A stretch of 64,000 nucleotides of DNA, taken from contig JBBDXD010000003.1 in the NCBI GenBank assembly GCA_040902535.1, forward strand, positions 1 to 64,000, written 5' to 3'. A program made the translations under genes and the position numbers. This document shows positions 7,114 through 63,359 of the stretch, piece after piece. Source of the DNA: Dehalococcoidia bacterium (GTDB lineage Bacteria; Chloroflexota; Dehalococcoidia; DSTF01; JACRBR01). Under the pieces are notes generated by a model. That model was not told the DNA's origin and did not search any database. It saw only the letters and a list, made by a program, of their open reading frames with translations. Position 1 is the stretch's first letter. Every line of letters begins with the position of its first letter.

Positions 7114-8373
7114 TTACCGGCCGATGCCGACGTACGCGACGCCGGCCGCGGCAACTGCCTCCGGCGTGAGCGCGCCGCGCCCATCGAGCACCGCGCGAAG
7201 GCCGGGGAACGCACGCAGGTCGAGCGAGGCGTACGCGTCGTGCCACGCCTGGACGACCAGCGCATCGCAAGCGGCCGGGAAGGCGGGCGGCGGTTCGACG
7301 CCGGCTGCGCGCAGTTCGTCGGCTGTAAAGAAGGGGTCGTGTACGTACGCCTTCGCGCCGGCGTCGGCGAGCGCCTGCACGAGCCCGTACGCGCTCGAGT
7401 GCCGCGACTCCTTCACGTTTGCCCGGTACGCGAACCCCAGCACGATGACTGTCGCCCCGTCAAGCGTGCCCAGCGCCTGCTTGAGCCGCTCGACGCCGTA
7501 ACCCGCCATGCCGTCGTTGATCCGACGGCCAGTGTCGATGAGGTCGCTGTCGCCGGCGCCGAGGAAGTGCGGGTAGACCGGTATGCAGTGCCCGCCCACG
7601 CCGACGCCCGGTTGGTGGATGTGCGAGTACGGCTGCGAGTTCGCCGCTTCGATCGCCTGCAACGCATCGACGCCGAGGCGGTCCGCCATGCGCGCGAACT
7701 CGTTCGCCAGCGCAATGTTCACGTCACGGTACGTCGTCTCGGCGAGCTTGGAAAACTCCGCCGTCTCTGCGTCGCGCACTTGCATCACCGGCGCGTCGAG
7801 CATCTTCTCGTAGAACTGTGCGGCAAGCGCCGTGCTGCGCTCGTCGATGCCGCCGACGACCTTCGGGTACGTCGCCAGGTCGCGTAACACGCTGCCGGAC
7901 GAGACGCGCTCGGGGCTGAACGCGACGGCGAAGTCGCCCGGCGGCGTCATGCCGCTCTGTTCGATGATCCTCGCGGCGACGCGATAACGCGTCGTGCCGA
8001 CCGGCACCGTCGTCTCGACGATGACCAGCGCGCCGCGCCGCACGTGCGGGCCCACCGCCTCGACTGCCGCGTCGAGCAGCGCGAAGTCCGGCCGCTGCGT
8101 TTCATCGATATCGACCGGCACGATGAAGATGATGGTATCGGCGCTGGCGGCCGCGTCACGCGCGTCGCACGTCGCGCGGAGCGTACCGCTCACAACGAAG
8201 CGCGGGATCGCCTCCGCGAGTCCGGGCTCGCCCTCAAGCGGGTTGCGACCGTCGTTGATCGCCGCAACGCGCGCCGCGTCGATGTCATAGCCTGCAACCT
8301 GTGCGCCTTTCGACGCGAACTGCACCGCCAGCGGCATGCCGATTTTGCCCAGCCCGACGACACAGACGTTCAC
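7114..8373 (-). CDS. wbpA: UDP-N-acetylglucosamine 6-dehydrogenase (WbpA-like)
   Basis: This 419-residue nucleotide-sugar dehydrogenase oxidises C6 of UDP-GlcNAc (or UDP-ManNAc) to the uronic acid with two NAD+. The Rossmann motif is CVVGLGKIGMPLA (residues 4-16), FSPERV marks the substrate domain, and the catalytic Cys is C263 in GVGVGGHCIPVYPHF. NSQPYSHIHQPG and YRANVKESRHSS are family-conserved. The GTG start overlaps the stop of the upstream dehydrogenase gene by four bases (GTGA). The other four genes of the diacetamido-mannuronate pathway lie upstream, so WbpA is more likely than WecC, although sequence alone does not separate the two. Confidence 0.85.
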   Translation of the reverse strand: MNVCVVGLGKIGMPLAVQFASKGAQVAGYDIDAARVAAINDGRNPLEGEPGLAEAIPRFVVSGTLRATCDARDAAASADTIIFIVPVDIDETQRPDFALLDAAVEAVGPHVRRGALVIVETTVPVGTTRYRVAARIIEQSGMTPPGDFAVAFSPERVSSGSVLRDLATYPKVVGGIDERSTALAAQFYEKMLDAPVMQVRDAETAEFSKLAETTYRDVNIALANEFARMADRLGVDALQAIEAANSQPYSHIHQPGVGVGGHCIPVYPHFLGAGDSDLIDTGRRINDGMAGYGVERLKQALGTLDGATVIVLGFAYRANVKESRHSSAYGLVQALADAGAKAYVHDPFFTADELRAAGVEPPPAFPAACDALVVQAWHDAYASLDLRAFPGLRAVLDGRGALTPEAVAAAGVAYVGIGR

Positions 8374-9434
8374 GCGGGCGCCGCCCGCAGCGGCAGCACG
8401 ACGTCTTCGCCGGTGTCGCCGGCGCGGACCAGCGCCTCGGCCGCCCGCATCGCGGCGATGGCGTCATCCGGCGAGACGGGCGGCGGACCGCCGGCGCGCA
8501 CCGCCGCGGCGAACGCCTCCAGCTCGACGCGCAGCGGCTCGCGCTTCTCGACCGCGATCGCGCGCACGGGCCCTTCGCTGACGCCCTTCGTGTGGCGCGC
8601 CGCCCAGCCCGCCGGCTCCTCGTGTTGGTGATGGTCGTTCTCGTAGAACGTGAGGCTGCGCGCCAGGTAGTCGACGACGAACATCCCGCGCTCGCCGAGC
8701 ACCGACAGTTCGCGGATCTTCGTCGGCGTCAGCCAGTTGACGTCGAGCACGCCGACGACGCCGTTCGCGAAGCGCAGCATGCCGAGCAGCATGTCTTCGT
8801 GCTCCGTGTTGATGCGCTGCTCTGTCTCGGCGTGTACGCGCACGATGTCGCTGTCGAGCAGGAAGCGCATCACGTCGATGTCGTGCGGCGCCAGGTCAAG
8901 TGCCACGCCGACGTCGCGCACGCGTTGCGGAAACGGCCCGACGCGGCGCGCGTGTACCTGGAAGATGCGCCCCGCCTCGCCCGCCGCCAGCCGCTGCTTC
9001 AGCTCGAACACTGCCGGATTGAACCGCTCGACGTGCCCCACCGTGAGCAGCACCCCCGCGCGTCGCGCCAGGTCGCGAAGTTCCCGCCCCTCGTCGATCG
9101 TCGCAGCGAGCGGCTTTTCCACCAGCGTCGCGATCCCGCGCTCGATCGCCGCGCTCGCGACTTCGAGGTGCGCGCGCGTCGGCACGGCGACCGTCAGCAG
9201 GTCGATGCGCTGCTCGTCCAGCATGCGGCGGTAGTCGTCGTACCCCGCGACCGCGAGCGCACCGTGGCGCGGGCTTTCAGCCCGCGACTGCTGCGCAGCG
9301 GCCGCGGCCACCCGACCCTCATCCACGTCCGCCACCGCCACCAGCTCGATGCCCGGCATCTCGCCGTACACGCGCACATGGTTGGCGCCCATCGCACCAA
9401 GCCCGATGACGGCGGCCCGCAGCGGTTCAGTCAT
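8370..9434 (-). CDS. wbpB: Gfo/Idh/MocA family UDP-GlcNAcA 3-dehydrogenase (WbpB-like)
   Basis: The 354-residue protein has an N-terminal NAD fold (AAVIGLGAMGANHVRVY) and the family EKP motif in LVEKPLAA, followed by the alpha/beta substrate domain with DLAPHDIDVMRFLL. By context it would oxidise C3 of UDP-N-acetylglucosaminuronate to the 3-keto sugar. Codons for about seven residues (SRAESPR) come from a GCGGGC-TTTCA-GCCCGC repeat inserted in frame, in the loop between the second and third strands of the Rossmann fold. TAGAAT lies six bases before the ATG, with CTGACC 16 bases further up, so this gene and wbpA probably have their own leaderless promoter. Confidence 0.83.
   Translation of the reverse strand: MTEPLRAAVIGLGAMGANHVRVYGEMPGIELVAVADVDEGRVAAAAAQQSRAESPRHGALAVAGYDDYRRMLDEQRIDLLTVAVPTRAHLEVASAAIERGIATLVEKPLAATIDEGRELRDLARRAGVLLTVGHVERFNPAVFELKQRLAAGEAGRIFQVHARRVGPFPQRVRDVGVALDLAPHDIDVMRFLLDSDIVRVHAETEQRINTEHEDMLLGMLRFANGVVGVLDVNWLTPTKIRELSVLGERGMFVVDYLARSLTFYENDHHQHEEPAGWAARHTKGVSEGPVRAIAVEKREPLRVELEAFAAAVRAGGPPPVSPDDAIAAMRAAEALVRAGDTGEDVVLPLRAAPA
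9268..9286. repeat. GCGGGC-TTTCA-GCCCGC repeat inside wbpB
   Basis: Seven-base arms CGCGGGC and GCCCGCG flank TTTCA. The element matches the dispersed intergenic family found at 31804, three times at 53231-53480 and twice near 61670-61720, but this copy sits inside a reading frame without breaking it. Confidence 0.8.
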
Positions 9435-54642: not shown

Positions 54643-54684
54643 CCCCCTCTCCGCTCGGCGGAGAGGGGGTTGGGGGGTGAGGTC
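54643..54684. repeat. CCCCCTCTCCG hairpin repeat (copy 2)
   Basis: CCCCCTCTCCG (54643-54653) and CGGAGAGGGGG (54659-54669) form an 11-bp stem, followed by TTGGGGGGTGAGGTCC. The same unit occurs at 1110-1147. Confidence 0.7.
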
Positions 54685-54703
54685 CACCTTGCTACGCTGA
54701 TCG

Positions 54704-54832
54704 CACCAAGGGGAGTAACCGGACCGCATACGGTCACCACGGTCGTCAATACGCGCGAGACCCAGCGCCGGCCGTGGAGCGAGAGCCTTCTCGTCGGTGA
54801 GACCTTGCCACATCGTTTGATGCGGCAAGGGT
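54704..54832 (+). promoter_or_regulatory. yybP-ykoY (Mn2+-sensing) riboswitch with expression platform
   Basis: The diagnostic blocks are present in order: CAAGGGGAGTAACC (54707-54720), CGTCAATACGCGCGAGAC (54734-54751) and GGTGAGACCTTGCC (54796-54809). P1 pairs CAAGG with CCTTG. The 3' strand of P1 is also the 5' arm of a second hairpin, GACCTTGCC-A-CATC / GATG-C-GGCAAGG-GTC (54800-54832), so the two structures are mutually exclusive. The RNA class senses Mn2+ and normally controls exporters such as MntP or TerC/UPF0016. Here the next gene, 27 bases on, encodes an Asp/Arg-rich protein. No promoter was pinned down. Confidence 0.85.
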
Positions 54833-54858
54833 CACCGCCATGACGGGAAGGATTTTTC

Positions 54859-55146
54859 ATGCTCGACAGACTCTTCGACATGCTGGGTGGTGGCGACGAT
54901 GACGGCGACGACCGCGATCGCCGCCGCCGTCAGCCGCAGCAGGGCGGCATCCGCGGCTTCATCGCCGGCCTCTTCGGCGGCGACGATGATGACGACGGCT
55001 CCTACGACGACCGCCGCGGCGCACGAGACGACCGCCGCCGCTACGACGATGATGATGACGACGACGACGAATACGCGCGAGGCCGTGGCCGGCGTCGCCG
55101 CGACGGCGACGATGACGGCGGCGGCCTCGGCTTCGGCGACGACTGA
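54859..55146 (+). CDS. Asp/Arg-rich low-complexity protein under a Mn2+ riboswitch
   Basis: The 95-residue protein begins MLDRLFDMLGG, then alternates acidic runs (DDDGDDRD, GGDDDDDGSYDD, DDDDDDDDEY) with arginine-rich patches and ends GGGLGFGDD. A second hydrophobic-amphipathic segment, GIRGFIAGLFGG, sits near residues 30-41. There is no signal peptide or cysteine. GGGAAGGA lies about seven bases before the ATG, just after the riboswitch. Aspartate clusters can bind divalent metals, so a Mn2+ buffer or chaperone is a reasonable idea but nothing in the sequence proves it. I recognise no family; similar short, charged proteins are often unannotated. Confidence 0.75.
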   Translation: MLDRLFDMLGGGDDDGDDRDRRRRQPQQGGIRGFIAGLFGGDDDDDGSYDDRRGARDDRRRYDDDDDDDDEYARGRGRRRRDGDDDGGGLGFGDD

Positions 55147-55232: not shown

Positions 55233-55748
55233 ATGAACGCCCGCGAAGGCCTCGCGATCCGCCCCGCGCACGAGCGCGACCTGCCGCGCCTGACCGAGAT
55301 CTACAACCACTACGTGCTGAACACGGCCATCACGTTCGACATCGAACCGTACACCACGGAGATGCGCCGTCCCTGGTTCACACAGTTCCGCGCAACGGGG
55401 CCGCACCGCCTGCTCGTCGCCGAAGCCGACGGCACGGTCGTCGCCTACGCCGGCACGCACCAGTTCCGCACGAAAGCGGCATACGACACCAGCGTCGAAG
55501 TGACGATCTACTGCACGCCCGACGTCACCGCGCGCGGCATCGGCACCGCGTTGTACGCCGCGCTCTTCGACGCCGTCCGCGACGAAGACATCAACGCATT
55601 CATCGCGGGCATCACGCTCCCCAACGATGCGTCGGTCACGCTCCACGAACGCTTCGGCTTCCGCCCCGCGGGTGTCATGCACTCCATCGGCCGCAAGTTC
55701 GACCGCTACTGGGACGTCGGCTGGTATGAGCTGGTCGTCCGACGATAG
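55233..55748 (+). CDS. GNAT family acetyltransferase (Pat/MddA-like)
   Basis: The 171-residue protein matches phosphinothricin/methionine-sulfone acetyltransferases: LAIRPAHERDLPRLTEIYNHYVLNTAITFDIEP, VAYAGTHQFRTKAAYDTSVEVTIYCTPDVTARGIGTALYAALFDAV (acetyl-CoA loop ARGIGTAL) and NDASVTLHERFGFRPAGVMHSIGRKFDRYWDVGWYEL (in pieces). It would acetylate small amines such as methionine sulfone or sulfoximine. No herbicide resistance can be claimed. It starts 86 bases after the Asp/Arg-rich gene on the same strand and could share its transcript. Confidence 0.88.
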   Translation: MNAREGLAIRPAHERDLPRLTEIYNHYVLNTAITFDIEPYTTEMRRPWFTQFRATGPHRLLVAEADGTVVAYAGTHQFRTKAAYDTSVEVTIYCTPDVTARGIGTALYAALFDAVRDEDINAFIAGITLPNDASVTLHERFGFRPAGVMHSIGRKFDRYWDVGWYELVVRR

Positions 55749-58966: not shown

Positions 58967-59140
58967 TGCCGGCGAGGGCACGGCCGAACCACCGCGATTC
59001 TCTCGTAGAAGCGCGGCGGGCGGGGGAACCAGGGTCCGCATTGCGCGGATGGGGTGAATCGAGCGTCGACCCGGGTTTACCGGCGGCGGCGACTTGTAGG
59101 GCAGCCTTCAGCCCGAACCCGTCAGCTAACCCCGCAGGCA
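58967..59140 (+). promoter_or_regulatory. ydaO/yuaA (cyclic di-AMP) riboswitch
   Basis: The conserved blocks appear in order: GGCCGAACC (58982-58990), GGGGGAACC (59022-59030), GGGGTGAATC (59051-59060) and CCCGAACCCGTCAGCTAACC (59112-59131), followed by CCGCAGGC. P1 pairs TGCC-GGCGAGG near 58968 with CCCCGC-A-GGCA near 59130. Such RNAs turn genes off at high c-di-AMP and usually precede potassium transporters, osmolyte systems or wall hydrolases. The only gene before the next terminator is the 68-residue zinc-ribbon protein. Downstream of the aptamer, CAGAA/TTCTG and GGCC-GACA-GGCC arms could form the expression platform. Confidence 0.9.
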
Positions 59141-59228
59141 GATCAGAAGGCCCGTGATTGGACATCCGGTAGCTTTCTGACTTCCGTATGAGCGGAGGTC
59201 CGGCCGACAGGCCCTGGAGGACTGCCTC

Positions 59229-59435
59229 ATGAACACCAATCTGCCCCGAACATGCCCCCGCTGTCGCGGATCGATGATCGTAGAGCGTGACTGGTACGGC
59301 GCCTACAGCACCTGTTTGTGCTGCGGCTACGTCCACGAAGCCGTCTCAACGCCCCCGATCGACCTGCTCGAAGAGGAAGAGGGCCACCCCCGCCAGCGCC
59401 GGCGCCAACCGTCGCACGGCAAGCTTCGTCTCTAG
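59229..59435 (+). CDS. Small zinc-ribbon protein under a c-di-AMP riboswitch
   Basis: The 68-residue protein has two CxxC pairs, RTCPRCRGSMIVERDWYGAYSTCLCCGYVHEAV, that would bind one zinc, then an acidic linker (LLEEEEGH) and a basic tail (RQRRRQPSHGKLRL). The fold resembles the zinc ribbons of transcription and ribosome-associated proteins, but no domain partner is visible. GGAGG lies eight bases before the ATG, and an intrinsic terminator follows 30 bases after the stop. The riboswitch is therefore dedicated to this gene. Function unknown. Confidence 0.8.
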   Translation: MNTNLPRTCPRCRGSMIVERDWYGAYSTCLCCGYVHEAVSTPPIDLLEEEEGHPRQRRRQPSHGKLRL

Positions 59436-62804: not shown

Positions 62805-63359
62805 TTGACGAACGAAGGTAGCGAGAGCGAGCAGATCGCTCCGGCGACCGCGGCCCCCGGGGCCGCAGAAACGTCGCCTCGGCCGGATACCGGCCGAACC
62901 GGGGAGCGCGAACAGCGACCGGCCAGCGACCGCCCGGAAGGCCCCCGTACCGATGACCGTGGCGACCGTCCCGGCGGCGATCGATTTGGCGGCGGCGACC
63001 GCGGCGGTGATCGATTCGGCGGCGGCGACCGCGGCGGTGATCGATTCGGCGGCGGCGACCGCGATCGCGGCGATCGGCCGTTCCGCCCGCGCGGTGGTGG
63101 TGGCGGCGGCTTTCGCGGCCGCGGCGGCGGCCGCAAGAAGGTGTGCGCCTTCTGCGTCGATAAGATTGACCGCGTCGACTACAAGGACGCACTCAAGCTG
63201 CGCCGGTACATCACCGAACGCGGCAAAATCGAGCCGCGGCGGAAGACGGGCACCTGCGCGCGGCATCAGCGCCGCCTGACAATCGCGATCAAGCGCGCCC
63301 GCCACCTTGCATTGCTTCCGTACACTGCCGACCACTCCTTCCCCGGCGACCGACGTTAG
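62805..63359 (+). CDS. rpsR: Ribosomal protein bS18 with long RG/RGG-rich N-terminal extension
   Basis: The 184-residue protein has a normal bS18 core from about residue 110 ([64 protein letters not shown], in pieces), about 75 residues as usual. It is preceded by a roughly 105-residue disordered extension rich in Gly, Arg and Asp. The extension contains tandem [11 protein letters not shown] repeats and an [14 protein letters not shown] segment. The DNA shows a 27-base repeat copied about three times (62970-63060). The TTG start has GGGAG seven bases upstream; no nearer start gives a plausible alternative before the core. The role of the extension is unknown. Confidence 0.9.
62975..63063 (+). 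repeat. 27-base tandem repeat inside rpsR
   Basis: Units reading GATCGATTCGGCGGCGGCGA and then CCGCGGCG are repeated about three times and encode the [10 protein letters not shown] peptide. The repeat is a source of length variation in the bS18 extension. Confidence 0.75.

Follow-up and report, generated by a model that had tools for sequence, protein, structure and literature searches.

A Mn2+ (yybP-ykoY class) riboswitch and the new family of Asp/Arg-rich small proteins that follows it

The riboswitch locus and its first gene

In the window, that is, the whole stretch of 64,000 nucleotides that was analyzed, a riboswitch aptamer, a hairpin competing with it, a small gene and a candidate co-transcribed gene follow one another on the plus strand, as listed here.

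54702 to 54811, plus strand: Mn2+ (yybP-ykoY class) riboswitch aptamer, a four-way junction of P1, P2, P3 (with L3) and P4
54707 to 54711, plus strand: 5' strand CAAGG of switch helix P1, pairing with CCUUG at 54803-54807, from the sequence
54710 to 54717, plus strand: L1 block GGGGAGUA, from the sequence
54712 to 54717, plus strand: 5' part GGAGUA of the metal-sensing loop L1
54722 to 54735, plus strand: P2 hairpin GACCG-CAUA-CGGUC, from the sequence
54737 to 54777, plus strand: P3 arm including L3 (GUCGUCAAUACG, 54742-54753)
54780 to 54793, plus strand: P4 hairpin CGAG...CUCG, from the sequence
54796 to 54804, plus strand: third consensus block GGUGAGACC, from the sequence
54796 to 54836, plus strand: competing hairpin GGUGA-ga-CCUUGCC...GGCAAGG-g-UCACC, from the sequence and RNAfold
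54845 to 54851, plus strand: ribosome-binding site GGGAAGG, 7 nt 5' of the ATG, from the sequence
54859 to 55146, plus strand: gene for a 95-aa Asp/Arg-rich small protein of an undescribed riboswitch-linked family, based on the family, on selection and on the ribosome-binding site
55233 to 55748, plus strand: GNAT acetyltransferase gene (PF13420, 2e-18), the candidate co-transcribed next gene, in the place that TerC takes in relatives

The three yybP-ykoY blocks that a first-pass annotation had read from the letters, L1, L3 and GGUGAGACC, do occur in this order, and the RNA combines the class features of a four-way junction, a conserved L1 (GGGGAGUA / GAGACC) and a metal-sensing adenosine in L3. 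In an alignment of 62 RNAs, those of E. coli included, the GGAGUA of L1 is invariant (62 of 62), the named loci among them having been chosen partly by that motif, and the L3 adenosine is invariant in all 62 as well. In the window RNA we take A54748 to be the probable counterpart of the Mn2+-sensing A41 of L. lactis. Sensing of Mn2+ by the L3 adenosine has been described for A41 of L. lactis and A48 of X. oryzae (PMC6754395), and for some yybP-type aptamers the ligand may be a divalent ion other than Mn2+ (PMC7266159).

The hairpin at 54796-54836 had been proposed to reuse the 3' strand of P1, and nucleotides 54803-54807 are indeed common to both structures; RNAfold gives -28.6 kcal/mol for the segment 54796-54861. 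The same hairpin arrangement is found in genome G003, from the same family as the window, and at the other loci. A run of U residues ends the hairpin in several relatives where TerC follows directly, making classic terminators of them, and is absent from the window and from most small-protein loci. Switching through P1.1 has been described for the class (PMC6754395; PMC11087558), and by analogy high cytosolic Mn2+ would dock L1 onto L3 and stabilize P1, which would prevent formation of the competing hairpin and turn the gene on. The anatomy, with P1 set against a competing hairpin, is that of a Mn2+-ON switch and agrees with the induction at high Mn2+ that had been suggested. With no U-run at the end of the window hairpin, the OFF state is more likely to operate through translation or Rho than through an intrinsic terminator; Rho and translational control have been reported for the mntP riboswitch of E. 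coli (PMC11647493). Just upstream of the aptamer, a sigma-70 promoter read by eye (TTGGGG-17-TACGCT, 54670-54698) was discarded since the promoter scan did not report it, and a 12-bp GC-rich inverted repeat (CCCCCTCTCCGC..) lies at 54643-54669, looking terminator-like on the minus strand.

The frame that opens with the ATG at 54859 encodes, as the first reading had it, 95 residues without cysteine behind a ribosome-binding site, and it is the only one among the 590 window frames with 60 aa or more in which more than 25% of the residues are Asp. Searches of Pfam, NCBIfam and PDB with the protein gave no match; in particular, the TerC domain PF03741 is absent according to Pfam, and so is the zinc ribbon PF13453 with its two CxxC pairs, there being neither cysteines nor a Pfam match. 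An AlphaFold model has a mean pLDDT of 54.5, with helices at residues 3-10 and 31-39, where the conserved motifs lie, and disorder in the remainder, both at low confidence. Judged from this model, the protein would be mostly disordered, with two short conserved amphipathic segments at residues 1-10 and 30-40 and with variable linkers, rich in Asp and Arg, between them.

Two further observations were made in the window. A c-di-AMP riboswitch (RF00379, 66 bits) at 58972-59155 on the plus strand lies 73 nt 5' of a gene at 59229-59435, whose 68-aa product, zinc-ribbon-like by its two CxxC pairs and carrying a charged tail, is an unusual target for such a riboswitch. A frame for 184 aa at 62805-63359 on the plus strand has a GGGDR-rich repeat extension and, by eye, a bS18-like C-terminal part, and adjoins a gene resembling, again by eye, ssb.

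Assignment of the RNA to the yybP-ykoY class

The first-pass annotation had named a search with the Rfam covariance model RF00080 as a check on its class assignment, and on this count the window RNA stays below threshold, since no match was obtained at gathering or relaxed thresholds, even at an E value of 10. As released, RF00080 comprises 177 positions and has a gathering cutoff of 45, and with this model the E. coli mntP leader reached 41.6 bits, which is under the model's own cutoff, while the E. coli alx leader went undetected. Furthermore, none of 17 sampled related leaders, located before genes for TerC, CaCA exchangers, P-type ATPases, the new family and other genes, was found, and the missed leaders include some of other phyla, where the downstream genes encode TerC, P-type ATPases or CaCA exchangers. 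As the model also misses alx and all 17 related leaders, its negative outcome for the window RNA is uninformative, and we put it down to insufficient sensitivity of the library model, not to a trait that would define this RNA. The Rfam annotation of the yybP-ykoY class is likely to be incomplete. Rfam's best match hereabouts was to mir-598, on the strand opposite to the coding sequence; it was below its cutoff and was set aside as a low-complexity artefact.

A two-block pattern was found in 10 of 393 genomes of the class to which the window belongs, the reversed control giving no matches, and the RNAs from these ten genomes served to build a covariance model, R1, that contains no E. coli sequence. 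The window RNA, being part of the training set, scores 81.4 bits with R1. Outside of the training set, R1 finds the E. coli mntP RNA at its known leader (37.8 bits, 1e-6) and likewise the alx RNA (23.3 bits, 0.002). This recovery of mntP and alx by a model trained without E. coli is decisive for placing the window RNA in the yybP-ykoY class. In the 393 class genomes, R1 detects 37 sites in 34 genomes.

The structure also finds support in the 62 aligned RNAs, an alignment which was fitted to the structure so that its covariation counts lean towards it: 89% of the cells pair, both sides change in 21 of 24 pairs (15 in shuffles), and the covariation score is 0.57, compared to 0.18 for shuffles, with slid structures reaching no more than 0.12. 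For P1 itself, both sides change in 6 of 7 pairs. The 3' part of the window RNA has a 72% identical homologue in G003, directly upstream of a TerC gene (PF03741, 2.3e-51), and no synteny between the window locus and this TerC locus was detected. Short DNA matches in two other genomes, G004 and G007, were taken as chance, R1 finding nothing at those loci. When about 85,000 named genomes were searched with a pattern, 48 loci were obtained, most of them before genes for TerC, CaCA exchangers or cation P-type ATPases. Taken together, the recovered E. coli leaders, the covariation and the TerC-linked homologue uphold the original proposal of a Mn2+ riboswitch, and on these sequence grounds window positions 54702-54811 are a real yybP-ykoY aptamer for which Mn2+ binding is predicted. 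A chance origin of the observed features is ruled out by the reversed pattern control, by covariation above that of the shuffles, and by the small frame standing alone in Asp content among the 590 window frames.

Genes behind the riboswitch and the small-protein family

When the 37 class sites were sorted by the first downstream gene, TerC followed directly at 15 and an Asp/Arg-rich small protein came first at 17. Charged-tail zinc-ribbon proteins of the TFIIB type were found at 2 and a CaCA exchanger at 1 (G006, from the window's family), and 2 sites were left unclassified. Behind the small protein, the next gene encodes TerC in 14 cases, an MgtC-family protein in 2 and the GNAT acetyltransferase in the window. 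The earlier suggestion to look for the same riboswitch-protein pair in related genomes has therefore been borne out: 17 genomes contain the pair, in most of them followed by TerC, and the arrangement in the window is a recurrent one and no oddity. At locus L053 (G057:C161) two riboswitch-TerC units stand in tandem, their aptamers at 8613-8721 and 7410-7516 on the minus strand. In Thermus (L065, L068, L071, L093, L097 and L099), a gene for a neutral zinc metallopeptidase (PF04298) follows riboswitches of the Mn2+ class in place of a transporter gene, the assignment having been checked on L065.

A direct protein search of the genome contigs with the window protein returned nothing, probably defeated by low complexity, and the family members were reached through the RNA pattern. 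The family has 17 members in the 393 sampled class genomes, each encoded by the first gene after a Mn2+ riboswitch. A profile search of these genomes, with a profile built from the riboswitch-linked members which hence match by construction, returned exactly those 17 and one marginal match with an internal stop, and it revealed no copies away from the riboswitch. Outside the class, no member was found in the phylum sample. In a leave-one-out analysis, where the profile that scores a member is made from the others and 300 shuffles of that member serve for comparison, 16 of the 17 members exceeded all of their shuffles, L045 being marginal, and the window protein obtained 18.3 bits when the best of its shuffles obtained 12.7 (0 of 300 as high). 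Orthologue pairs display a third-position excess and pN/pS values of 0.37 to 0.60, apart from the poorly aligned pair L026/L022 (0.74), and the orthologues are thus under purifying selection (pN/pS about 0.37).

In the alignment, conservation resides in an N-terminal M-LFELFERD (family helix 1, LFxLFERD), a central RGIRGFFxRLFG and an acidic/aromatic C-terminus; the window protein shares helix 1, helix 2, the acidic C-terminus and the position first after a Mn2+ riboswitch. Across the family, acidic residues amount to 20-34% and basic residues to 17-25%, and cysteine is absent but for one in L045. The emphasis that the first reading placed on repeated Asp runs has to be qualified. The protein is Asp/Arg-rich as described, but in homologues the longest acidic run can be as short as 2 or as long as 9 residues, so that the runs are a compositional trend and no conserved element, the conserved parts being the two helices and the C-terminus. 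Some members (L022, L036) have few acidic residues.

These results bear on whether the frame is a gene at all. Low complexity, the failure to match any library and a genome without TerC could suggest a chance frame left behind an orphaned riboswitch after loss of TerC. However, a family of 17 members with shared motifs, the score of the window protein above all 300 shuffles, purifying selection among orthologues, the ribosome-binding site and the same position at all loci speak against it, and we give this reading practically no credence; at the level of the family it is already refuted. Because the family shares motifs and the same position, its orthologues are under purifying selection, and the window frame has a ribosome-binding site, the small frame is a real gene. 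A link between the Mn2+ riboswitch and a protein of this kind, of which the first-pass annotation knew none, is undescribed in the literature searched, outside of which lie the two founding papers of 2015. On sequence grounds, the small proteins form a new family, and the riboswitch class to which it is attached is a known one.

The genome of the window, which is 96% complete, has no TerC (PF03741), and R1 detects no second credible riboswitch site in it. Since TerC is missing, the small protein is the sole recognized target of the riboswitch in this genome, which carries a CaCA exchanger elsewhere. In G082 and G308, the small protein belongs to a riboswitch unit without TerC and a second riboswitch is found elsewhere, before TerC in the case of G308; with the small protein and TerC behind separate riboswitches in G308, the former can be regulated on its own. 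In these two genomes (L023/L024) an MgtC-family gene (PF02308) lies about 90 nt 3' of the small-protein gene, and a possible hairpin terminator was seen between the two. Where TerC follows the small protein, a gap of about 70-105 nt mostly separates the two genes and TerC has a start site of its own; in L044 the gap is 3 nt. In G003 (L003:350-406), an 18-aa frame MSCCDRARPHTGDVRRWF has its ATG at the same position after the riboswitch and overlaps the TerC start; it is possibly a remnant or a leader peptide. Given that G003 keeps this 18-aa frame together with TerC, and the window's genome has the small protein without TerC, the order riboswitch - small protein - TerC would fit as the ancestral one, either gene having been lost later.

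The small frame might alternatively be for the most part a regulatory leader cistron, one that links the riboswitch to translation of the downstream TerC by being translated itself and not through what it encodes. Its constant place as the first gene after the riboswitch, the 18-aa frame overlapping the TerC start in G003 and the gap of just 3 nt in L044 are compatible with such a role, which nevertheless seems improbable in view of the constraint at the amino acid level with conserved motifs at both ends, the separate start sites at most TerC genes with gaps of about 70-105 nt, the absence of TerC from the window's genome and the frames in G082 and G308 that have no adjacent TerC.

Function of the small protein and comparison with known systems

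The explanation we favor, with a probability of roughly 0.55, is that the small protein would be a Mn2+-induced, mostly disordered accessory of Mn2+ homeostasis which partners TerC or buffers or delivers Mn2+. A role in Mn2+ homeostasis is made more likely by the recurrence of the pair in 17 genomes, usually with TerC next. TerC proteins are involved in Mn2+ efflux and in the metalation of exported enzymes, and B. subtilis MeeY of the TerC family is under the control of a Mn2+ riboswitch (PMC10550928). According to our favored explanation, the small protein would normally act alongside the TerC-family protein of the adjacent gene, its short helices attaching it to TerC or to the membrane and its acidic linkers most likely binding Mn2+ weakly, with the outcome that Mn2+ would be buffered, or handed over for export or metalation. 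A partnership with TerC has against it the loci where TerC is not adjacent and the genome of the window, which lacks TerC and in which the small protein may act alone or with another exporter, such as the CaCA exchanger.

Isolated Asp runs bind Mn2+ weakly and non-selectively. As acidic runs vary from 2 to 9 residues and L022 and L036 are poor in acidic residues, it is not clear that strong Mn2+ binding is what the family conserves. A more specific proposal, which we advance tentatively, is that the family might consist of dedicated Mn2+ metallochaperones or buffers, disordered proteins made at excess Mn2+ only. They would capture Mn2+ and pass it to TerC, which would export it or metalate secreted enzymes with it, and in some lineages they would replace TerC altogether.

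The conserved helices and variable acidic linkers would also agree with an exporter modulator like MntS of E. coli; the two helices of the small protein would then bind TerC or another transporter and alter its activity, and the linkers would only keep the protein soluble and bind no Mn2+ specifically. TerC adjoins the small protein in 14 of 17 loci, and a small protein together with an exporter has a precedent in manganese homeostasis (PMC4361602). However, MntS is induced at low Mn2+, opposite to the switch in the window (PMC4361602), and the window's genome offers no TerC, so that we consider a modulator of this type rather unlikely. With 20-34% acidic and 17-25% basic residues across the family, the protein might instead form a charged condensate or be a polyampholyte interacting with nucleic acids or ribosomes, that is, a general protectant against metal stress. 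Since the gene context appears to indicate Mn2+ transport and not general stress, this is a very improbable role, and an accessory function in Mn2+ homeostasis continues to be our preferred reading.

Comparison with TFIIB-type zinc-ribbon proteins (PF13453) is suggested by a protein of G284 in the same place after the riboswitch, which has an Asp/Arg-rich tail ending in KKGFLSTIFESMG; its counterpart in G146 is broken by frame changes. In contrast to PF13453 proteins, members of the window's family are free of cysteines apart from one in L045, and an origin of the family from zinc-ribbon proteins was rejected, the tail similarity not being significant (68 of 1000 shuffles as high). At L048:1121-1450 on the minus strand, a riboswitch is followed by a TFIIB-type zinc-ribbon protein with an Asp/Arg-rich tail, in the position taken elsewhere by the cysteine-free family, and at L038/L013 the frame is broken. 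With E. coli MntS, compared by description and not by sequence, the small protein shares that it is small, non-enzymatic and linked to manganese, but MntS has 42 aa, is made at low and reduced at high Mn2+, and is not induced by a riboswitch.

The window RNA has in common with the class represented by RF00080 the L1 and L3 loops, the GAGACC strand, the four-way junction and a P1 with a competing hairpin, and its relatives also target TerC, CaCA exchangers and P-type ATPases. It differs in scoring below RF00080 detection, in its GC-rich stems, in a hairpin without U-run and in having a new small protein as target. A GC-rich part of the Mn2+ riboswitch class is overlooked by the current Rfam model. 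In comparison to TerC/Alx/MeeY (PF03741) operons, the riboswitch is the same and 14 of the 17 related loci have TerC as the following gene, whereas an extra small gene is located between riboswitch and TerC, and in the window's genome stands without TerC. While the targets of Mn2+ riboswitches known so far are mostly membrane transporters, the conserved, soluble small protein encoded behind this one is a candidate for a missing cytosolic part of Mn2+ handling beside TerC.
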